Shown here: in pieces, positions 11,198-27,007 of the stretch
How the letters are laid out: the number at the start of each line of letters is the position of its first letter
How positions within the stretch are numbered: position 1 is the stretch's first letter
Assembly: GCF_000420345.1 (NCBI RefSeq)
Contig: NZ_ATUT01000018.1
Coordinates: 1 to 40,018 of the forward strand
Length of the DNA: 40,018 nucleotides
Reading direction: 5' to 3'
Source: Faecalicoccus pleomorphus DSM 20574
GTDB taxonomy: Bacteria; Bacillota_I; Bacilli_A; Erysipelotrichales; Erysipelotrichaceae
Notes under the pieces: model-generated
What the model was told of the DNA's origin: nothing
What the model saw: only the letters and a program-made list of their open reading frames with translations
Databases searched by the model: none
Made by a program: the position numbers and the translations under genes

Positions 11198-12259
11198 ATG
11201 AACAAGAAAAATAAACATAATAAACTTTTTAAAAGCTTATTTGTTGTAATGGTACTATCATTATCTTTAATTGGTTGTGGAAAAAGTACAGAAGCACTAG
11301 TTAAAGAAAAGTTGGAATCTTATGAAGAAGTAGCTGGTAATAAAGATAAAGAATTCAATGGGTTGGAATTTAAAGTGAATTCGGATATAGAAGCAAAATC
11401 AGATTATTACTATCCAGTAGATGAAGATACAAAGTATCCGATTGTAACTTTTGATTTAAAGGATTCTGAGACAGATTTTACAGAATCGTCAGAAAGTACT
11501 CTTGAATCTGCTATAAAAGGAAATGAAAACCAACTTTGGAATAGTGAAGATGAAGTTTCTGAATATTCTATTGATACAGAGGATTTAGAAGGAATAGAGT
11601 GCTTTGAAGCAACTTATACAGTGCAGTTGAATGATGAAGAATTACCAGAAGATGTATTAAGTCCGAATTTAAAGGTAGATGCTTTCTATATTCCAACGCA
11701 TAGTGGGTTATATAAGGCCGCAATTTATACGTATCAAGAGGATGAAAATGATTATAAATTTGATGATTTTATAGAATCATTCAAGATTAAGGATTTACAG
11801 GATTATACGAATAATCAGAAACAAGAACGATTAAAGACAGAAGAATTAGATAAATTAAAATCTCAAATCAATGCGATTACTTGTCTAGATGGTGCAAATG
11901 AACAGGAAAAACAGATATTTGATACAAGAAAGCAAGAAGCATTAAAGTTAATCGCAAATAGGGCATCTACTGATGAAATCAATGCGGCTAAAGAGCAGTT
12001 AAATACAACAAATTCAGATATACAAGCTCGCATTGACCGAGATAAAGCAGCAGAGGAAGAAGCTGCACGTATTCAACAACAGCAACAACAAGCAGCAGCT
12101 GCAAGAAATTCTCAAACGCAAAACAGTGGTGGAATCACGGGGAATACAATTGGGGGATATCTTTGTGTAGATGGAACCAATGTAGGAAATGCCGATCCAC
12201 ATGCCAAAGGTCGGGCAAATGCTTGTTATGGACATGGTGGATTTGCGATAAATCATTAA
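11198..12259 (+). CDS. Lipoprotein with coiled coil and small Cys-rich C-terminal domain, in the rml operon
   Basis: 353 residues. A basic N-terminus, hydrophobic stretch and lipobox L-I-G-C indicate a lipoprotein with the modified cysteine near residue 27. Residues about 30-205 are an acidic globular domain I do not recognise. Residues about 210-300 are charged and helical, ending in an A-A-E-E-E-A-A-R-I-Q-Q-Q linker. The last 35 residues (G-G-Y-L-C-V-D-G-T ... A-C-Y-G-H-G-G-F) have two cysteines and an H-G-G end. This is reminiscent of small modules such as DUF3761 (C-x-D-G-T ... C-x-x-H-G-G), but that is only a resemblance. It sits between rmlC and rmlB with 3-base and 16-base gaps, so it is made with the rhamnose enzymes. 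It may act in assembly or display of the polymer; no function is established. Confidence 0.85.
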   Translation: MNKKNKHNKLFKSLFVVMVLSLSLIGCGKSTEALVKEKLESYEEVAGNKDKEFNGLEFKVNSDIEAKSDYYYPVDEDTKYPIVTFDLKDSETDFTESSESTLESAIKGNENQLWNSEDEVSEYSIDTEDLEGIECFEATYTVQLNDEELPEDVLSPNLKVDAFYIPTHSGLYKAAIYTYQEDENDYKFDDFIESFKIKDLQDYTNNQKQERLKTEELDKLKSQINAITCLDGANEQEKQIFDTRKQEALKLIANRASTDEINAAKEQLNTTNSDIQARIDRDKAAEEEAARIQQQQQQAAAARNSQTQNSGGITGNTIGGYLCVDGTNVGNADPHAKGRANACYGHGGFAINH

Positions 12260-17360: not shown

Positions 17361-18278
17361 ATGATTTCCGTAATAATGTCTACATACAAAGAGAGCGAAT
17401 TACAGTTAAGACAATCTATAGAATCTATCCTAAATCAAACTTATGAAGACTTTGAATATATAATTATTTTAGATTGTCCTGATAATCAATTGCACAAGAC
17501 TATTATTGAATCATATAAAGAGAAGGGCCCGAGAGTTAGATTTTATATAAATGAAATGAATATTGGCTTAGCAAATTCATTGAATAAGGGAATTCAACTA
17601 GCAAATGGGGAGTTTATCGCGCGAATGGACGCAGATGATATTTCATTACCAGACCGATTTAAAAATCAATTAAAATATATCCAAGATAAGAATTACGATT
17701 TAATTGGTGGTATTACTCAAATGATCGATGAAAATGGAGATTTAATATATTCTATACAAAAGGTTCCCACGAACTATGATAAAATCAAAAAAATATTAAA
17801 GTATGGGCAATGCATAGCGCATCCTACATGGTTTGGAAAGAAAGTCGTTTTTGAAACTTTAAATGGATATCGGGAAATTCCTTTATGCGAAGATTATGAC
17901 TTTACTTTAAGAGCGGTATTAAGTGGATATAGAATTTCAAATCTAAATAAAATAGTATTACAGTATCGAATGACTAATCATAGTATTTCACGGCAAAATT
18001 TATTTGAACAGTATCTGTATATGACTTATATTACTAAACAATATAAGCAAGGTAAAATTAGTGATATAGAAAAGGCCAAGAAATATGTTGAAGATAAAAA
18101 TGATTTAAAACAATCAAAAAAATATCTACAAGCTAATATCTTGTTTAATTCCATGCTACGAGAAATTTCACAAAAGAAGTTATTGAGTTTTGTAAAACAT
18201 GGATTTCAATTAGTTTTTACTTCTCGATATTATTTAGATAAAATCTTTCGTTTTGTTTTATTATCACTTAACTCATAG
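17361..18278 (+). CDS. GT2 glycosyltransferase
   Basis: 305 residues with a GT-A fold: S-V-I-M-S-T-Y-K-E at the N-terminus, S-I-L-N-Q-T-Y-E-D-F-E, N-I-G-L-A-N-S-L-N-K-G and the metal site R-M-D-A-D-D-I-S-L-P-D-R. This is the common capsular or wall-polysaccharide GT2 type. C-terminal residues about 225-305 are helical with a hydrophobic end, which may lie on the membrane. It is the last gene before a strong terminator, so it closes the polysaccharide locus. Donor sugar unknown. Confidence 0.87.
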   Translation: MISVIMSTYKESELQLRQSIESILNQTYEDFEYIIILDCPDNQLHKTIIESYKEKGPRVRFYINEMNIGLANSLNKGIQLANGEFIARMDADDISLPDRFKNQLKYIQDKNYDLIGGITQMIDENGDLIYSIQKVPTNYDKIKKILKYGQCIAHPTWFGKKVVFETLNGYREIPLCEDYDFTLRAVLSGYRISNLNKIVLQYRMTNHSISRQNLFEQYLYMTYITKQYKQGKISDIEKAKKYVEDKNDLKQSKKYLQANILFNSMLREISQKKLLSFVKHGFQLVFTSRYYLDKIFRFVLLSLNS

Positions 18279-18311
18279 CAAATCTCTATACAATATAGCG
18301 ATTTGCTTTTT
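18277..18311 (+). terminator. Intrinsic terminator of the polysaccharide locus
   Basis: AGCAAATC (18277-18284) pairs with GATTTGCT (18300-18307). The inner CTATA/TATAG stem extends it across one mismatch. Four more Ts follow. The hairpin starts inside the stop codon of the last glycosyltransferase. Confidence 0.88.
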
Positions 18312-18368
18312 ATATGATTGAATTTACTTAAATATTTCGTTAAGCTTTAGGGGAGAGGAGAGTTATAA

Positions 18369-21300
18369 ATGAAAAGTATAATAAGAAAGGGAGCAGCTTT
18401 AATGCTGTTTATGGCAATGGTAATAAACTGTTTTTCGGTTTCGCCTATTTATGCTCATGAAGACAATGTGAACAGTGGAGAAACTATGACAGAAATAGAA
18501 AATTCTGAAAATAACATGGAAGAAGGTTTTCCTAGTGAGGATGTAACATTACCTGAAGAAAATGAAAATAATATTCCTGAGAAGGATCAAATAACTCATG
18601 ATACTCAAATTCAGGATAATGGGGTTGTAGAAGATAAGGAAGAAGTATCAACTCCAATTCCTGGGGATACTTCTTTAGTTAACTATTTTTATGTAGGGTA
18701 TCCTTATTTACAAGCTCCGGCATCACAAGAGTTTGTATTATCCTTTGGTACAGGTACAGAAAATATTTCTAGAATTGTATTAAAGTATCAGAAAGATAAT
18801 GGAAATTTAATAGAGTTAGAGAGCTCAAGGCAATCAGAAGAGCTTTATGTTTTTAAGAAAGATTTTACAGAATCGGATAAAGGGACTTATAAAGTCATCG
18901 GATTCAGTTATTTTGTTGATTCTCAAGAATATACAATTAGTTTTTCTGATTTAGAAATGGATGTACGTTTTGGTGTAAATCAAGAGTATGATGGATATGG
19001 AGAAAATGAAGGATATACAATTGATGAAAACGGGAATGAAGTAGAAGAATCTGATGAAATCAATGACTCTATGGCTCAGGAAATTGAATCATCGGTTGTA
19101 TCCTTGAATGGTTCTAATGTGGCTAGTACAGAAGATTTGGTAGAATCTGTTTTAAAAGAAAATGCACAAACGCCTCAAAACAACAGTAGAAAAAAGCGTT
19201 CAATCACAACTTATTCAGAGAATAATCCTCTAGTGATCTGTATTGATCCAGGACATGGGGGTAGTGAAAGCGGTACTGTAGTAGTGGATGGTTCTTTAGA
19301 GAAGAATTTGAATTTAAAGATTGCCATGTATTTGAAAGAAGAACTAGAACAATATAACAATGTTAAGGTTGTAATGACTAGAACAAGTGATGTTTATGTT
19401 AGCTTGCAAGATAGAGCAAGAATTGCAGCAAATGCTGGCGCTAAAGCTTTAGTTAGTATCCACATTAATGCCACTGGATGGGGGACGCAAAATAAAGTAT
19501 CTGGGGCAGAGGTATATTACCCTCACGCCAATTACAATGCTTCCGTTTCTGAGACAGGTAAAAATCTAGCTCAAAATATTTTGAATGAACTGGTTGGCTT
19601 AGGTTTAAATAACTTGGGTATCAAAGTTAAATATGTATATGACTCTGAAACTGGAAAACCAGCGAATGATCCGGCTTATGATTATCCGGATGGTTCTGTA
19701 GGGGATTATTATGGAGTGATTCGTTATAGCAAAGAATTAGGTGTTGCAGGAATCATTGTTGAGCATGCAATGTCAGATAATTGGAGTGATTTTAATAATT
19801 TTTTGAGTTCGGATGCGAAACTTAAAAATTTAGGTATTGCGGATGCGACAGGAATTGCCAAAGCGTTTGGATTACAAAAGATAGATAGAAACTATCTAAA
19901 TCAACTTGCACTACAATATAAAAATACCATTAAAGATGGGACATATTCACTTTCATTAAAAGGAGATTCTAAAGTAGTATCTGTAAAGGATGCTTCAACA
20001 TCGGATAATGCCAACATCATTATGCAAAATAATGCTACTTCGGATTATCAAGGTTGGAGAATAATAAATAATGATAACGGGTATGTTTCAATTCAAAATG
20101 TGTATAGTGGAAAGGCTTTGTCAATTAATAACGGAGCTGAAAACGCAATCTGCCAAAAGAATCCAAATTTGTCATATGATAGTTTGTGGATTATTCAGCC
20201 AAGTGGTTCAGGATATAAAATTGTATCAGCCTCTAATATTGAAAATTACTTGAATGTATCTTCTGAAAGAGTGGTTTTAGGAAATGATTCAAGTCAAGTA
20301 TGGAATTTTAAATCTTATTCTCAAAATATTGCAAGTATCTTATATAGAGCACATGTGCAAGATACCGGTTGGCAATCATGGGTTCAAAATGGAGATACTG
20401 CAGGGACCACAGGTAAAAATAAGAGAATTGAAGCAATAAATTTAAAACTTTCAGAGAATATTGCAGGAGGAATTGAATACCAGGCTCATGTTGAAAATAT
20501 AGGTTGGCAAGACTGGGTATCTAACGGCCAATTGTCAGGTACGACTGGGAAAAATCTGCAGATGGAAGCTGTTCGAATAAAACTTTCTGGTGATGCTGAA
20601 AAAAAATATGATGTATATTATAGGGCTCATGCTCAGGAATTTGGCTGGTTAGACTGGGCAAAAAACGGTGAAAGTGCAGGTACACAAGGTTATAATTTTC
20701 ACTTGGAAGCTTTAGAGATACAGTTAGTAACTAAAGGCGGAAAAGCTCCGGGAAATACTTCGGTACCTTTTAAGCAAAAGGAAACGAATATAAAAAAACT
20801 GTCCTATCAAACACATGTTGAGAATATAGGTTGGCAAGATTTAAAGTATGATGGGGAAATTAGTGGAACAAGTGGTCAGTCTTTACGATTAGAGGCTATT
20901 AAGATTTCTTTAGCGAATTTGACTCATACGGGTTCTATCGAATATGCAACACATATTCAAGATATTGGCTGGCAAAATTGGAAAGCAAATGGAGATTTAA
21001 GCGGAACCACAGGCCAAAATAAACGCTTAGAAGCTATTAAGATTCGTCTTACTGGAGAAATTGCTGATTATTATGACGTTTATTATCGAGTTCATGCACA
21101 AGAGTTTGGTTGGTTAGATTGGGCAAAAGATGGTCAAGAAGCAGGAACTGCAGGTTATAGTTATCGTTTAGAGGCTATTCAGATACAACTCGTTGAAAAA
21201 GGTCTATCAGCACCGGGAAGCACTGAAACACCTTTTATTCAACGCTTGATAAGATACCAAACACATGTTGAGAATATAGGCTGGCAAGATTTTAAATATG

Positions 21301-22256
21301 ATGGTGAAACGAGTGGAACTAGTGGTGAATCATTACGATTAGAATCTATAAAAATCACACTGCCTAGTCTCAGTACACAAGGAAGTGTACAATATAGTAC
21401 TCATATACAGGATATTGGATGGCAAAATTGGGTTTCAAACGGACAACTAAGTGGAACAACTGGACAGAAGAAAAGGCTAGAAGCGATTAAAATTAAATTA
21501 ACAGGTTCATTATCTTCTAAATATGATATTTACTATAGAGTTCATGCACAAAATTTTGGTTGGTTAGATTGGGCGAAAAATGGTGACAATGCTGGAACTG
21601 AGGGATATGCATATCGCCTAGAAGCCATAGAAATTCGTATGATTCCCAAAGGAGAAAATGCACCAGGAAGTACAGAAAATCCATTTTATAAAAAACAAGA
21701 AGCAGTTACATCGGGTTATTTGATTATGGGTACTTCAAATGTTACAGATAAGGAATTAGTTTCATATTTTAACCGCTATAAAGGAAGTACCGTTTATGAC
21801 ACATATTTAGGAACAAATTCAAAATATAATGGAGTATTATCAAAAGGTGGTGCAGCTACTATTGAAGATTTTTGTAAGATTTTTTATGAAGAATGTTTAG
21901 CTGAAGGTGTAAAACCAGAAGTAGCTTTTGCACAATCCATGTTAGAGACAGGATTTTTAAGATATGGTGGAGATGTTTTACCCAATCAATATAATTTTGC
22001 TGGTCTGGGAGCAACAGGAAATGGAGTTCATGGGAATTCGTTTAAAGATGTTAGAACAGGAATAAGAGCACAAGTTCAACATCTAAAATGTTATGCATCT
22101 ATGGATCCATTGAATCAACCGTTAGTTGATCAGCGTTGGAGTGAATCCTTAAGAGGAAAAGCACCCACAGTTGAAAAACTTCAAGGAACTTGGGCAACTT
22201 CCACGACATATGCTAAGACACTTTTACAAGCAATAGATAGAATTAATAGTTTATAG
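18369..22256 (+). CDS. Secreted bifunctional autolysin: amidase, ricin-type lectin, nine ChW repeats, glucosaminidase
   Basis: 1295 residues. Signal peptide about 1-27 (ends S-P-I-Y-A). An acidic linker and an unassigned beta-rich region follow, to about 205. Amidase_3 domain about 288-500 with zinc/catalytic residues H296 (D-P-G-H-G-G), E311, H365 (S-I-H-I-N) and E465 (V-E-H-A). Ricin-type lectin about 515-650. Nine ChW repeats about 657-1107. C-terminal glucosaminidase about 1120-1295 with catalytic E1193 (S-M-L-E-T-G-F). It should cut both the sugar-peptide amide bond and the glycan chain of peptidoglycan. All key residues are present. It is a single gene after a terminator, with a very strong ribosome site GGGGAGAGGAGAG. 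Its position beside the polysaccharide locus suggests its repeats bind that polymer or the wall. Confidence 0.93.
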   Translation: MKSIIRKGAALMLFMAMVINCFSVSPIYAHEDNVNSGETMTEIENSENNMEEGFPSEDVTLPEENENNIPEKDQITHDTQIQDNGVVEDKEEVSTPIPGDTSLVNYFYVGYPYLQAPASQEFVLSFGTGTENISRIVLKYQKDNGNLIELESSRQSEELYVFKKDFTESDKGTYKVIGFSYFVDSQEYTISFSDLEMDVRFGVNQEYDGYGENEGYTIDENGNEVEESDEINDSMAQEIESSVVSLNGSNVASTEDLVESVLKENAQTPQNNSRKKRSITTYSENNPLVICIDPGHGGSESGTVVVDGSLEKNLNLKIAMYLKEELEQYNNVKVVMTRTSDVYVSLQDRARIAANAGAKALVSIHINATGWGTQNKVSGAEVYYPHANYNASVSETGKNLAQNILNELVGLGLNNLGIKVKYVYDSETGKPANDPAYDYPDGSVGDYYGVIRYSKELGVAGIIVEHAMSDNWSDFNNFLSSDAKLKNLGIADATGIAKAFGLQKIDRNYLNQLALQYKNTIKDGTYSLSLKGDSKVVSVKDASTSDNANIIMQNNATSDYQGWRIINNDNGYVSIQNVYSGKALSINNGAENAICQKNPNLSYDSLWIIQPSGSGYKIVSASNIENYLNVSSERVVLGNDSSQVWNFKSYSQNIASILYRAHVQDTGWQSWVQNGDTAGTTGKNKRIEAINLKLSENIAGGIEYQAHVENIGWQDWVSNGQLSGTTGKNLQMEAVRIKLSGDAEKKYDVYYRAHAQEFGWLDWAKNGESAGTQGYNFHLEALEIQLVTKGGKAPGNTSVPFKQKETNIKKLSYQTHVENIGWQDLKYDGEISGTSGQSLRLEAIKISLANLTHTGSIEYATHIQDIGWQNWKANGDLSGTTGQNKRLEAIKIRLTGEIADYYDVYYRVHAQEFGWLDWAKDGQEAGTAGYSYRLEAIQIQLVEKGLSAPGSTETPFIQRLIRYQTHVENIGWQDFKYDGETSGTSGESLRLESIKITLPSLSTQGSVQYSTHIQDIGWQNWVSNGQLSGTTGQKKRLEAIKIKLTGSLSSKYDIYYRVHAQNFGWLDWAKNGDNAGTEGYAYRLEAIEIRMIPKGENAPGSTENPFYKKQEAVTSGYLIMGTSNVTDKELVSYFNRYKGSTVYDTYLGTNSKYNGVLSKGGAATIEDFCKIFYEECLAEGVKPEVAFAQSMLETGFLRYGGDVLPNQYNFAGLGATGNGVHGNSFKDVRTGIRAQVQHLKCYASMDPLNQPLVDQRWSESLRGKAPTVEKLQGTWATSTTYAKTLLQAIDRINSL
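20337..21692 (+). repeat. Nine ChW repeats arranged as three triads (about 450 bp each)
   Basis: Each repeat of about 45 residues has the form Y-x-x-H-(V/A/I)-(Q/E)-x-x-G-W-x-x-W-x-x-x-G-x-x-(S/A)-G-T-x-G, then L-E-A-I-x-I-x-L. Every third copy differs in a fixed way (Y-D-(V/I)-Y-Y-R-x-H-A-Q-(E/N)-F-G-W-L-D-W-A-K) and is followed by an A-P-G-(S/N)-T spacer, so the unit is a triad. Triads start near 20337, 20790 and 21245. Triads 2 and 3 are most alike in DNA, for example ACACATGTTGAGAATATAGG near both starts, which points to recent duplication. Confidence 0.88.
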
Positions 22257-22261
22257 ATTTA

Positions 22262-22295
22262 AAAGATAAGCGAATTTATGCGCTTATCTTTTTTT
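22262..22295 (+). terminator. Intrinsic terminator after the autolysin gene
   Basis: AGATAAGCG (22264-22272) and CGCTTATCT (22281-22289) form a 9-bp stem with an 8-base loop, followed by an uninterrupted T run to 22295. Confidence 0.9.
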
Positions 22296-22353
22296 ATAGG
22301 CATGATATTGAGATATAATAAAAATAGATAAAGTTATATTAAGGAGATAATAT

Positions 22354-25242
22354 ATGCGAAAGATAACGAGTGTAATGAGTGTTGTATTGAGTCTAAGCAT
22401 CATGACAACACCAGTATATGCACAGGAAACCAGAGACTGGACGAATGAGGAAAGTTTTGTACCATCACTTTCAAAACAGGAAGAAGGAACATTAACCTTT
22501 GACTTCAGGTTTATGCAGGAGCAGCCTGTGCAGGGAGAACATGCAAGCGTAGTTTTGCCGGAAAACTATATGGTGTTTGAAAATACGGAACCAGTACCTG
22601 TCTATGCCTACACAGTGGAAACAGATCAGATTACTGACATGGTCCTGGGAACTGTGGAAGTGGAAGATGGAGAAGCAATAATTACCTTTAGTGGAGAATC
22701 GGTAGATTATTCAATTTTTAAAGGTGAATTCAATGTAACAGGGGATTTTATTGATGAACAGTATGAAACAGATGTGGTTTCATGGAATTTAAATGACAAG
22801 GTGCAGGAAAATCTTCGACTTCCAGAGAAGACGGAAGTACCAGTAAAAGAAGAGGAACAACCTGCGGAGGACGAAATAGACAATATTGAAACCGAACCAA
22901 GTGTTGAGGAAGAAGAGAAACCGGTAATGGAAGAAACGGAACCGGAAGAATCGCCAGAGATAACACCAGAGGCTGCAGTAAATAGCCTTGAAGAGGATAC
23001 AGAAGGCCTGCACTATCAGGCCCATGTACAAAACATAGGATGGATGGATGCAGTCAATGATGGAGAAGTCGCAGGAACACAAGGGCAAAATCTGAGAATG
23101 GAGGCTCTGAAAATCGATTTAGATTCAGAAGAGATCCAGTATCGTGGCCATGTACAGAATCTAGGATGGCAAAACTGGGTGACCGGTAGCCAAATGGCCG
23201 GAACAACGGGACAGGATCTTCGCATGGAGGCAGTCGAGATCAAACTGACCGGAGAGATGGCGCAGAAATATGATATTTATTACCGAGTGCATGTGTCCGA
23301 TTATGGAACGCTAGGCTGGGCAAAGAATGGTCAGACGGCTGGGACAACCGATCTGAATACATCAATGCAGTCCATTGAAATTTGTTTGTATGAAAAAGGT
23401 GATGTGAGTGCGCCACAAACGGGAGGATCCAGTTTATCACCTACGAACAAAGGAACCTTGACTTACCAGGCCCATGTACAGAATATTGGCTGGCAGGGAA
23501 GCGTGGCTGATGGAGACATTGCCGGAACGCAAAAAAAATCTCTTCGAATGGAAGCATTAAGAATCTATTTAAATAATCCGGAAGGAGTGGAAGGATCCGT
23601 AAGATATAAGGCCCATGTAGAAAATATAGGCTGGCAAGACTGGGTAGGAAATGGAGAGATAGCCGGAACGACGGGGCAGGATCTTAGAATCGAAGCGGTA
23701 CAGATAGAACTAACCGGTGCGATGGCAGAGCGCTATGATATTTATTACCGAGTGCATGTGTCCGATTATGGAACATTGGGCTGGGCCAAAAATGGAGAGG
23801 TAGCCGGAACAACGGATTACAAGAAGGCAGCACAGTCCATTGAGATCCGGTTGTATGAAAAAGGAGACAGCAGTGCACCACAGACAGGAGGCTCCTACCT
23901 AACACCGACCAATAAGGGAATGATAACTTATCAGGCTCATGTGGAGAACATAGGTTGGCAGGACAGTGTAGCTGATGGTAATATGGCAGGAACGCAGGGC
24001 CGATCCTTACGAATGGAAGCGATGAAGATATATCTGAACAATCCGGAAGGAGTGGAAGGATCTGTAAGATATAAAGCCCATGTACAGAACATAGGTTGGC
24101 AGAATTGGGTAAACAGCGGACAAGTAGCTGGTACTACGGGACAGGATCTACGGATGGAAGCGATACAGATAGAGCTGACTGGAGAGATGGCTGAAAAATA
24201 TGATATCTATTATCGGGTTCATGTATCCAACTATGGGACACTCGGCTGGGCCAAAAATGGAGACAAAGCAGGAACTGAATCCATGCAGACTGCAATACAA
24301 TCGATAGAGATTAAAATTTTGGAAAAAGGAGATCAAAGCATAGAATGTTCAGACGGTTATTTAGGTCCAGAACGTTTAGGCACTTTATCTTACAGTGTCC
24401 AAGTTGAAAACTCGTGGCAAGAAAATAAAACAAGTGGTGAAATAAGTGGAACTACTGGTCAATCAAAGATGTTAACTGGGTTAAGAATGTCGATAGAAAA
24501 TAATAGCGAAAATTGTTTTGATGGTAGCATACAATATCAGGCACATTTCTCTAACGATGGATGGACGAATACTGCAGCAGATGGAACAGATTCAGTTTCT
24601 AATGGGAATGGTATTGAGGCTATAAAAATAAGTTTAACTGGAGAACTGGCAAAATATTGTGATGTGTATTATCGAACCCATGTTGAAAACTTAGGTTGGA
24701 TGGGCTGGGCTAAAAATGGCCAAGCAGCAGGTACCACTAAGTTAGGTTATCATATGGAAGCACTAGAAGTTCGCTTAGTTCTTAAAGGGACGTATGTAGG
24801 GCCTAATGAGAACTATTATAAAGACTACCTGAATCCTACATTACAAAAGGCACATGAAATTAATAACTCTTTAGGGCGTGATTTAAGAGCAGCTTTCAAT
24901 TATGCAAAGAGTATTACTTACTCCCGCTATGAACCAGCGGACTATAATGGCTATGGAAGTGAAAACTATGCGGCTTATGGTTTTGCAACACATCGTGGGA
25001 ATTGTTATGTAATGGCTGCTGTGTTTACTTACTTAGCTAAAGATCTTGGATATGATGCTCATCAAGTAGGTGGATATCAAGGAAGCTACAATACGCCACA
25101 TTCCTGGGTTGAAATCGTAATTAATGGAACCATTTATGTATTTGACCCAGATTTTGAAAAAGAATTAGGCAGAAATGGATACATGTTTACGTATGGAACT
25201 TCGGGTACATTAATGTATCACAGTTATTCAAGAATGAATTAA
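22354..25242 (+). CDS. Secreted transglutaminase-like protein with twelve ChW repeats
   Basis: 962 residues. Signal peptide about 1-23 (ends T-P-V-Y-A). A beta-rich N-terminal domain spans about 25-155; an acidic Glu/Pro linker spans about 155-215. Twelve ChW repeats run from 218 to about 812. A transglutaminase-core domain (about 840-962) has a complete Cys-His-Asp triad: C884 (R-G-N-C-Y-V-M-A), H916 (P-H-S-W-V-E-I) and D931 (F-D-P-D). Such domains are cysteine peptidases or acyl transferases acting on wall peptides or proteins; which applies is not clear. Codons and base composition change near 24330: repeats 1-9 are visibly richer in G and C than repeats 10-12, the catalytic domain and the neighbours. 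The ribosome site is AAGGAGAT, and TATAAT at 22314-22319 is a likely -10 box. The lipoprotein gene follows after 11 bases. Confidence 0.9.
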   Translation: MRKITSVMSVVLSLSIMTTPVYAQETRDWTNEESFVPSLSKQEEGTLTFDFRFMQEQPVQGEHASVVLPENYMVFENTEPVPVYAYTVETDQITDMVLGTVEVEDGEAIITFSGESVDYSIFKGEFNVTGDFIDEQYETDVVSWNLNDKVQENLRLPEKTEVPVKEEEQPAEDEIDNIETEPSVEEEEKPVMEETEPEESPEITPEAAVNSLEEDTEGLHYQAHVQNIGWMDAVNDGEVAGTQGQNLRMEALKIDLDSEEIQYRGHVQNLGWQNWVTGSQMAGTTGQDLRMEAVEIKLTGEMAQKYDIYYRVHVSDYGTLGWAKNGQTAGTTDLNTSMQSIEICLYEKGDVSAPQTGGSSLSPTNKGTLTYQAHVQNIGWQGSVADGDIAGTQKKSLRMEALRIYLNNPEGVEGSVRYKAHVENIGWQDWVGNGEIAGTTGQDLRIEAVQIELTGAMAERYDIYYRVHVSDYGTLGWAKNGEVAGTTDYKKAAQSIEIRLYEKGDSSAPQTGGSYLTPTNKGMITYQAHVENIGWQDSVADGNMAGTQGRSLRMEAMKIYLNNPEGVEGSVRYKAHVQNIGWQNWVNSGQVAGTTGQDLRMEAIQIELTGEMAEKYDIYYRVHVSNYGTLGWAKNGDKAGTESMQTAIQSIEIKILEKGDQSIECSDGYLGPERLGTLSYSVQVENSWQENKTSGEISGTTGQSKMLTGLRMSIENNSENCFDGSIQYQAHFSNDGWTNTAADGTDSVSNGNGIEAIKISLTGELAKYCDVYYRTHVENLGWMGWAKNGQAAGTTKLGYHMEALEVRLVLKGTYVGPNENYYKDYLNPTLQKAHEINNSLGRDLRAAFNYAKSITYSRYEPADYNGYGSENYAAYGFATHRGNCYVMAAVFTYLAKDLGYDAHQVGGYQGSYNTPHSWVEIVINGTIYVFDPDFEKELGRNGYMFTYGTSGTLMYHSYSRMN
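23005..24792 (+). repeat. Twelve ChW repeats arranged as four triads
   Basis: Repeats follow the same A-B-C order as in the neighbouring autolysin. The third member reads Y-D-I-Y-Y-R-V-H-V-S-(D/N)-Y-G-T-L-G-W-A-K in triads 1-3, which shifts the first G-W, while in triad 4 it has the normal form. Triads 2 and 3 share long nearly identical DNA, including CCGGAAGGAGTGGAAGGAT in both (near 23589 and 24044). Triad 4 is the most diverged and lies in the AT-rich part of the gene. Confidence 0.88.
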
Positions 25243-25253
25243 GGAGATAAGAT

Positions 25254-25991
25254 ATGAAGAAAATTTTAAAATTACTTTTACTTAGTTTTACTTGTTTTTC
25301 ATTTATATTGTCTGGCTGTTCAGCGCAAGAAGCACCCAAAGAAGAGAAAGAAGAAATGAAGACAATTGGTGAAGAAATTCAAGGAGAAAATGTTTATAAA
25401 GTAATACTAACAAATTCTACTGGGAAATCTATTAAAGGATTTGCTATCAAAACTGGTACAATGGATGCTTTTGGTGAAAATATGTTAGGCGAAGATGATG
25501 AATTTTCAAATAAAGAGAAGAGAACTCTTTATTATGATGCTACAACCGCTATTGAAGAAAATGAAGAAGCTCAAAAAGATGCTGAAATGCAGACATCTCC
25601 AGATTATACTATACAGCTAACATTTGACGACGATTCTACTATTGAACTTCATTCTTTTCCATTTTCAGATGTAGAGAAAGCATCAATCGAATTCAATAAT
25701 GAAGAGTCTATCGCTTATATTGAATATACATCTATTGAGCAGGATACAAAGGTTTCTACAGAGGAAGCAGAAATTAGAATTAAACAAGAGCAAATAGCTG
25801 CTCAACAGGCCGCTGAAGCTGCAGCACAACAAGCTGCTCAGGAACAGGCGCAACAAGAAGCAGCACTTCAAGCGCAACAAGCTCAGCAAGCTCAACAAAT
25901 TCAACAGCAACCTGTACAACAAGCTCCAGTACAAAATACAGCACCTTCGGCAAATGAAGGCTGTTTAGGAGATTCTGTCGAAACATGGTAA
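25254..25991 (+). CDS. Lipoprotein with Gln/Ala-rich C-terminal stalk, function unknown
   Basis: 245 residues. The lipobox L-S-G-C places the lipidated cysteine at about residue 22. Residues about 35-160 form an acidic beta-rich domain starting V-Y-K-V-I-L-T-N-S-T-G-K-S-I-K-G-F. Residues about 170-235 are a low-complexity coiled-coil-like stretch dominated by Q, A and E, ending in a short G-C-L-G-D-S-V-E-T-W tail with one cysteine. It is in one transcript with the transglutaminase gene (11-base gap) and overlaps the acyltransferase start by 7 bases. A long flexible stalk on a lipoprotein suggests reaching through the wall. I recognise no family. Confidence 0.82.
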   Translation: MKKILKLLLLSFTCFSFILSGCSAQEAPKEEKEEMKTIGEEIQGENVYKVILTNSTGKSIKGFAIKTGTMDAFGENMLGEDDEFSNKEKRTLYYDATTAIEENEEAQKDAEMQTSPDYTIQLTFDDDSTIELHSFPFSDVEKASIEFNNEESIAYIEYTSIEQDTKVSTEEAEIRIKQEQIAAQQAAEAAAQQAAQEQAQQEAALQAQQAQQAQQIQQQPVQQAPVQNTAPSANEGCLGDSVETW

Positions 25992-27007
25992 AAAAACCAA
26001 TTTACAGTTTCTATAATTTACGAGTCATAGCTTGTATTGGAATTGTATTATTACATACATTAAATGGTGCTATCGGGTTATACGGTAGCACTATTAGTGT
26101 TAACGAACAAATCATATCTCTGACAGTAAAGAATTTATTGTTGTGGTGTGTTCCATGTTTTGTAATGGTAACTGGAGCTTTATTATTAAATCCTGAAAAA
26201 GAAATTTCATATGTAAAATTATTTAAAAAATATATTTTGCGGATAATCTTTGCACTATTATTTTGTTGTATAGTTTTTTCAATATTTGATTTAATTGTTC
26301 ATGGAGACACATTTACATTTCATATAATTGTTGAAATAATTCAAGATTTCTTTTTGGGAACAAGTTGGTCACATCTTTGGTATTTGTATTTGATTATCGG
26401 ACTTTACTTAATGATTCCAATATATAAAATCATTACTAAAAATGCTAAAAGTAGAGATATTAAATATATATTGATACTTTATTTAATATTTTTATCGATA
26501 ATGCCGACTCTAAATATATTTGGTCTTAATGTTTCTTTTTACATTTTAGTTTCAACTATTTATCCATTCTATGCTTTTTTTGGATATGCATATTATCAAA
26601 AGATCATCGAATTAAGGAATTACCAATCTTTATTATTGATCATTTTATCAAGTATTGGTTTAGTCTTAGTGAATATTTATCAATACAAGTTTGGATATGC
26701 ATTTTTAGAAGTTCTATTGAACTACTCATCTATTCTAGTAGTATTACAGTCAGTTGGAATATTTGCTCTATTTGTAAATTTTAAAGGAAAAAGCAATAAA
26801 GTAATAGAATCATTGGATTCTGCTTCATTCGGAATTTACTTATTACATATGATTTTTGTTAGGTTAATCCTAAAGTATTTGGAGTTTAATCCTTATAATT
26901 TCATTCCTTTAGTTTCATTTTTATGCCTTGTTATTACAGTCGTATTATGTTCTTATGTAATTGTTTTTATGCTTAAGAAAATTCCTGTATTTAATAAGTT
27001 TTTATAG
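25985..27007 (+). CDS. Membrane acyltransferase, Acyltransferase_3 (OafA/WecH/OatA-like) family
   Basis: 340 residues with about ten membrane segments and no extra extracellular domain. The N-terminal R-V-I-A-C-I-G-I-V-L-L-H-T motif fits the R-x-x-A...H signature of Acyltransferase_3, whose histidine is needed for acyl transfer. W-Y-L-Y-L-I-I-G-L-Y-L-M-I-P and the late S-F-G-I-Y-L-L-H segment are also typical. Enzymes of this family O-acylate wall glycans, capsule sugars or lipids. Position after the two ChW proteins and downstream of the polysaccharide locus suggests a wall-polysaccharide or peptidoglycan target, which is inference. It overlaps the lipoprotein gene, so the two are translated together. 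Confidence 0.88.
   Translation: MVKKPIYSFYNLRVIACIGIVLLHTLNGAIGLYGSTISVNEQIISLTVKNLLLWCVPCFVMVTGALLLNPEKEISYVKLFKKYILRIIFALLFCCIVFSIFDLIVHGDTFTFHIIVEIIQDFFLGTSWSHLWYLYLIIGLYLMIPIYKIITKNAKSRDIKYILILYLIFLSIMPTLNIFGLNVSFYILVSTIYPFYAFFGYAYYQKIIELRNYQSLLLIILSSIGLVLVNIYQYKFGYAFLEVLLNYSSILVVLQSVGIFALFVNFKGKSNKVIESLDSASFGIYLLHMIFVRLILKYLEFNPYNFIPLVSFLCLVITVVLCSYVIVFMLKKIPVFNKFL

Follow-up and report, generated by a model that had tools for sequence, protein, structure and literature searches.

How one gene came to be written in two codon styles is the question raised by a ChW-repeat transglutaminase-like protein of Faecalicoccus pleomorphus DSM 20574. The gene (22354-25242, + strand, as are all features of it and of its neighbors given below) encodes 962 amino acids (aa), predicted to be secreted, and lies in a window of 40,018 nucleotides, the whole stretch of DNA analyzed here, which is contig C18 (NZ_ATUT01000018.1) of a 1.99 Mb genome (G000). 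Its 5′ part is like the average gene of the genome, and its 3′ part is like the AT-rich polysaccharide island that surrounds it; the oddity is the AT-rich island, not the "GC-rich" 5′ part. Sequence comparison leads us to propose, with moderate confidence, that the gene is a recombinant whose genome-like 5′ module was imported from a gene of the P46 class and joined within the ChW repeats. TG and AM denote transglutaminase-like and amidase ChW genes, with the genome as suffix (TG_G000 is the window's gene). G074 and G101 are congeneric genomes and G001 is a different genus of the same family; P46 is a ChW gene of G101, and P159 is one of G091, truncated where its contig ends.

The surface-polysaccharide island, named by eye and from Pfam matches, spans 1016-27004 (+ strand). 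Third-position guanine-plus-cytosine content (GC), computed throughout without Met and Trp codons, is 0.12-0.25 in all 18 of its other genes of at least 150 aa, and the genome median is 0.353 (301 open reading frames (ORFs) in 399,665 bases sampled as 20 stretches; ORF sets were called mechanically and may include some false genes). A preliminary description had placed a composition break inside the TG gene, and three measures bear it out. GC in 300-base windows is 0.39-0.49 over about 22500-24300 and 0.36-0.41 over 24300-25200. The best single change point is nucleotide 24253, where third-position GC passes from 0.370 to 0.219 (log-likelihood ratio 11.2; 0/1000 permutations; support interval within 2 log units, 24178-24421), a strength matched by none of 84 sampled genome genes with at least 400 informative codons (maximum 9.7). 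A codon-usage score that conditions on the amino acids, with the 301 genome ORFs and the 18 other island genes as opposing training sets, peaks at the identical base; on these sets it puts 18/18 island genes on the island side and 280/301 genome ORFs on the other. The break had been put near 24330, at the border of triads 3 and 4; its best position is instead within triad 3, in the last ChW unit, and both 24330 and the border itself (24384) still fall in the support interval.

Along the gene, third-position GC is intermediate in the N-terminal part (22354-23007; 0.316), including its acidic linker (22849-23007; 0.327), and reaches 0.400 in triad 1 (23008-23457) and 0.412 in triad 2 (23458-23922, preceded by a KG-type linker), both with genome-typical codons. 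Triad 3 is split: 0.376 over the 101 codons before the break (5′ part, 23923-24252, DNA identity to triad 2 75%) and 0.209 over the 43 codons after it, in the stretch holding the 3′ part and connector (24253-24384, island-like codons). The degenerate fourth triad (24385-24786), also island-like in codons and shared with G101's VanY-type paralogue, is at 0.190, and the catalytic part (24856-25239) is at 0.220; a 23-codon linker is the exception (0.391). By the codon model the head and triads 1, 2 and 3 score positive, triad 3 barely (1.2), and triad 4, the linker and the catalytic part score negative. Of the GC-richer stretch described from about 22400, the N-terminal region is intermediate; the return to an AT-rich neighbor style after the break is seen in both third-position GC and codon model. 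A foreign GC-rich donor, by contrast, is rejected because codon usage in the 5′ part is typical of the genome. Neither does ChW sequence as such explain the step, since the three ChW triads of the neighboring AM_G000 are at 0.15-0.22.

Composition breaks where the homogenised triad repeats come to their 3′ end, in the final ChW unit of triad 3. DNA identity between triads 3 and 2 is 76% up to residue 641 and 46% beyond (0/500 permutations), triads 2 and 1 show no comparable drop (65/500), and the array called by Tandem Repeats Finder stops at 24275. Across the break, at 24244-24263, lies a 20-bp exact match to triad 2 (23779), the proposed recombination joint; within the window no exact repeat of 24050-24450 is longer, and the maximum for the whole gene is 41 bp. 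Past the break the protein shows the features of TG_G074 and TG_G101, GDKAGTE and then YLG..R.G.L.YSV. In G101 and G001 the tract of repeats stops at or close to the equivalent ChW unit; G074 has its main drop earlier, at column 64 (95% to 63%), with 85% identity before and 54% after column 110.

A tract of exchange between two ChW genes was found in G001 (L125:6534-8381 and L125:10233-13940). The sole regular triad of TG_G001 has 95% DNA identity to triads 2 and 3 of AM_G001, themselves 99% identical to each other in DNA, and identity drops to 37-44% at residue 295, the tract ending in the ChW unit equivalent to the window's joint unit. The head of TG_G001 is likewise of amidase type (37% identity; alignment score 252 versus 48-60 for heads of the window's type, N1), and its residues 31-175 score 215, whereas 200 residue shuffles reach at most 78. 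ChW genes of the island thus do exchange sequence, and in this near-identical tract between the TG and amidase genes the joint falls in the unit corresponding to that of the window.

TG_G000 and the TG genes of G074 and G101 share 39% identity in the head, 46-54% in the triads, 50-51% in the degenerate triad and 91-92% in the catalytic part; the corresponding values between TG_G074 and TG_G101 are 72%, 69-87%, 81% and 95%. The catalytic domain was therefore kept, as had been suggested, but the fourth triad described with it as original is no conserved remnant, since it is only 50-51% identical to that of the congeners. TG_G000 triads match the amidase triads of their own genome at 43-57%, and the same comparison gives 69-86% in G074, G101 and G001 (leaving out triad 1 of AM_G001, at 38%). 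In a tree of 124 triads, most forks of which have too few columns behind them, the window's three form one group (99/90) that is left unplaced, and TG triads cluster with amidase triads in G074 and G101. In an approximately unbiased (AU) test on 52 rows, joining triads 1-3 with the congeneric TG triads was rejected (p = 0.027), also with the amidase triads added (0.028) or with triad 2 of P46 added (0.016). The two parts of the gene were not seen to share nearest relatives, those of the catalytic part being the congeneric TG genes and triads 1-3 standing at about 50-55% to many; with no close relative of triads 1-3 and moderate AU support, this difference is not decisive. Among 12 genes compared, KG-type linkers occur in TG_G000, P46 and P159 alone, and APG-type linkers occur in all five amidase genes, TG_G074 and TG_G101; TG_G001 and TG_G091 have neither. 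These patterns were defined after the alignment was seen, and the P46 linker carries the letters APG ahead of its KG motif.

The candidate donor class is represented by P46, a head-plus-ChW D,D-carboxypeptidase (VanY) gene (L124:4107-6722) adjoining pfkA in G101 (pfkA, like secA below, was named by eye). In G101 it occupies GC-typical DNA, flanked by pfkA and an ABC transporter; the site is empty in G000 and G074 and holds other genes in G029. When the window's codon model was applied to P46, the head and triads were genome-like and the last triad and enzyme island-like. A P46-type remnant was sought at the pfkA locus of G000 and is absent there. Elsewhere in G000, at C5:11863, a 394-aa frame matches in the VanY part only; it looks to be no remnant, because G029, which has no ChW match to P46 or to the triad query, has a similar VanY relative of 391 aa. 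A query of triads 2-3 found matches in 9/195 family and 8/392 phylum genomes, the own genome included in both counts. Outside the gene, identity in these samples is at most 55% over most of this query, on which ground a recent donor among them is rejected; shorter matches go up to 58% (117 aa) and 67% (42 aa). For triads 1-3, in the loci compared, which include those of the best 80 of 519 relatives in the contig scan, the top matches outside the own genome, among the matches listed, are at 50-55%.

Putting these results together, we suggest that the 3′ module (the end of triad 3, the degenerate triad and the transglutaminase-like domain) belongs to the island together with the lipoprotein-like and acyltransferase genes downstream. 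The 5′ module, an adhesin-like head and a run of ChW triads, has the codons of the rest of the genome and a linker type that would ally it with other head-plus-ChW genes (P46 of G101, P159 of G091), not with the amidase genes. Homologous recombination between ChW genes may have swapped this module in the window's lineage, joining at the GW.GWAKNG core that is conserved in the last regular ChW unit; the head and wall-binding array would change and the enzyme would be kept in frame. Recombination with a ChW gene had been proposed in the preliminary description: its place in the ChW repeats fits both the coincidence of step and tract end and the G001 tract, and no donor for it was found among the genomes sampled. 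A broader generalization, which we offer tentatively, is that in the wall islands of Erysipelotrichaceae this unit core could serve repeatedly as the joint for exchange, independently in at least two genera, at which the adhesin-like head and wall-binding array are swapped between amidases, D,D-carboxypeptidases and transglutaminase-like enzymes as the enzyme and its partner genes stay.

Several observations weigh against a recombinant gene with a replaced 5′ module. The best-scoring place for triads 2-3 outside the gene is the own-genome amidase gene (55%), ahead of P159 (53%) and P46 (49%), and no donor was identified among the 195 family and 392 phylum genomes sampled. The head is about as distant from P46 (40%) as from the congeneric TG genes (39%). 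The AU test does not reject grouping the window's triads with triads 2-3 of AM_G000 (0.18), triad 1 of P46 (0.24) or triad 1 of P159 (0.35), and with six tests on groups picked after the tree was seen, support at p 0.016-0.028 is moderate. Between triads no more than 20-45% of fourfold sites are the same; the event would thus be old, as synonymous sites are near saturation, yet composition has not levelled. The drop between triads 3 and 1 sits later, at residue 661 (3/500 permutations), and that between triads 3 and 2 could partly reflect a differing connector to triad 4, G074, G101 and P46 dropping too. P46 itself has no significant single step (93/300 permutations), and weaker internal steps, all below 11.2, occur in three of nine other ChW genes scanned: AM_G001 (9.0; 1/300), AM_G074 (6.4; 3/300) and AM_G000 (5.6; 10/300). 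AM_G101 is borderline (16/300), and none was found in TG_G074, TG_G101, TG_G001, P46 or P159 (55 to 149 of 300 permutations). Finally, the amidase genes of the window and G074 show the same contrast of fast and slow parts (N-terminal part 46%, triads 54-60%, catalytic parts 77-78%). Fast ChW divergence is therefore usual, and the composition step and the tract end carry the case for a joint.

Import of the 5′ module from a P46-class gene is nevertheless our first choice over the reverse history, in which the window's gene retains an older head and KG-type array and the arrays of G074, G101 and G001 were overwritten by amidase repeats through gene conversion inside the island. The exchange tract of G001 and the clustering of TG with amidase triads in G074 and G101 would suit that history, as would the recurrence of the head and KG-type linkers in P46 and P159. 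It needs another cause for the 5′ composition, however, and leaves genome-typical codons within an AT-rich island unexplained; P159, which resides in the island with the same KG linker type, is AT-rich (0.105-0.164). We consider overwriting possible but doubtful. Less probable still is a history with no recombination, in which the 5′ codons were shaped by selection (for expression or repeat stability) or by GC-biased conversion as the ChW part diverged fast. The rapid divergence of ChW parts in the amidase gene and the weaker steps in AM_G001, AM_G074 and AM_G000 speak for this, but the non-repeat head part is shifted too (0.316 versus 0.183 for AM_G000), the step sits at the end of the repeat tract, and amidase triads are AT-rich here, as is AM_G001 with its 99% identical triads. 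GC-biased conversion in particular was rejected, as the amidase repeats stay AT-rich.

An assembly chimera of two ChW genes would also produce a step, repeat genes being prone to chimeras, and the 3′ joint is known from one assembly. Exact repeats within the window, on the other hand, do not exceed 20 bp near the joint or 41 bp across the gene, and the 21 ChW matches of the genome all lie within the window's gene and the neighboring amidase gene. An independent bin (L048) has 98% DNA identity to the window over 18275-22527, which includes the same amidase gene and, adjoining it, the first 58 codons of the TG gene; its contig stops before the joint, which is why no second assembly confirms it. 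We judge a chimera very improbable, and the favored reading remains a gene recombined within its ChW repeats.

Judged from its domains, the product itself is likely to be an enzyme that is secreted and bound to the wall, in which an MSCRAMM-like head and ChW repeats precede a transglutaminase-like domain. A signal-peptide-like N-terminus (22354-22416) was read by eye, with no predictor. The all-beta head domain N1 (22417-22848) was modeled by AlphaFold2 with a predicted local distance difference test score (pLDDT) of 89.9, and VIA-align of the model with ClfB (3at0) gave Z 11.1, a root-mean-square deviation of 3.3 and 126 aligned residues; by Foldseek alone the match is weak (best E 3.8e-3, ACE). 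Across 315 genomes of the order, head-domain matches occur in the own genome, G074, G101 and G091, with two more that are very weak. ChW units (PF07538) exceed the Pfam cutoff at 12 places in the gene, one of them only with in-frame neighbors, and at the protein level 11 stretches pass, totaling 492 bits. Transglut_core (PF01841) matches the catalytic part at 32.4 bits (cutoff 23), and C884, H916 and D931 (or D933), invariant in 7/7 aligned homologues, are inferred to form a catalytic Cys-His-Asp triad. The model of this part is of low confidence (64.7); its first Foldseek match, which is weak, is Streptococcus pyogenes TglA (9crn, E 5.8e-4), and no PDB sequence matches at E 0.01. By eye, no LPXTG sorting signal was seen at the C-terminus, the protein ending ...YHSYSRMN after the catalytic part. 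If exported as predicted, the protein would be held at the wall by its ChW units and may act there on an amide or protein substrate.

Upstream lies the amidase ChW gene (18369-22256; Amidase_3, ricin-type lectin, three ChW triads and glucosaminidase), AT-rich throughout. Downstream are a lipoprotein-like gene assigned by eye (25254-25991), with a Gln-rich tail, an NEGCLGD..ETW end and no match in a Pfam search, and an Acyl_transf_3 membrane acyltransferase gene (25985-27007; Pfam), the third of a conserved block. Both follow the catalytic part in G000, G074, G101, G001 and G091; by eye a similar pair is present in G022, and the pair is not there in G114. The upstream neighbor is the amidase gene in G000, a MerR-methyltransferase in G074 and G101, another gene in G001, and was not seen in G091. 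The congeners thus keep the catalytic domain and two downstream genes and differ in head, triads and upstream neighbor. The last 100 residues of the lipoprotein-like product contain 23-24 Gln in G000, G074 and G101, 11-13 in G001 and G091, and 1 in G022; its C-terminal NEGCLGD.V.TW is conserved in the first five of these genomes and not in G022. On sequence grounds, this product is a candidate substrate of the transglutaminase-like enzyme.

The location of the island varies (1016-27004, L121, L123, L124 and L182 were compared): in G000 it is on a contig also holding secA, in G074 it is beside the pfkA-ABC transporter region, and judged from contig ends it is probably there in G101 as well. A fragment of a Mutator-family transposase (PF00872; 1-291) stands at the contig end adjoining the island, and a further lipoprotein-like gene (11198-12259), with no match in a Pfam search, carries a run of Gln and a C-terminal tail that contains Cys (YLCVDGTNVGNADPHAKGRANACYGHGGFAINH). 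L048 (CASEIJ010000017.1, titled uncultured Mycoplasmatota) shares parts of the island, three blocks at 94-98% DNA identity and a fourth at 72%; the bin name looks wrong.

With other ChW (clostridial hydrophobic W) repeat proteins of PF07538 the window's gene shares the ChW triplets on a secreted wall enzyme, and it differs in its transglutaminase-like catalytic part and internal composition step. One study suggests that ChW units may act in triplets and gives the ligand as unknown (PMC5817068), and proteins are displayed on Lactococcus by a phage anchor that contains ChW (PMC5817068, PMC8051824, PMC6700490 jointly). The literature searched had little on ChW repeats, and passages of these three papers were silent on exchange between genes; nothing was returned for TglA or for gene conversion in connection with autolysin and repeats that bind the cell wall. 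Membership in the transglutaminase-like superfamily is backed by the Pfam score, the invariant Cys-His-Asp and the weak TglA fold match; the model confidence of 65 and the lack of a PDB sequence match set the domain apart, and cross-linking here is putative. The head is alike in fold to the MSCRAMM adhesins ClfB, ACE, CNA and RspB (Z 8.9-11.1 in a search that covered one such domain), with 9-16% identity and, by eye, no LPXTG in the protein. In the choline-binding surface proteins of pneumococci, a repeat anchor is joined to varying heads and enzymes in mosaic genes through modular exchange; the window's gene differs in its repeat family and in its host, a gut member of the Erysipelotrichaceae.

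Within an AT-rich island, a GC-richer piece can look native, and composition should be read there with caution. Most likely, related genes swap pieces within their wall-binding repeats while the enzyme end is kept. A mappable joint in one genome and a near-identical tract in a relative offer a concrete place to study how the outward-facing and wall-binding parts of such proteins change as the enzyme is retained.

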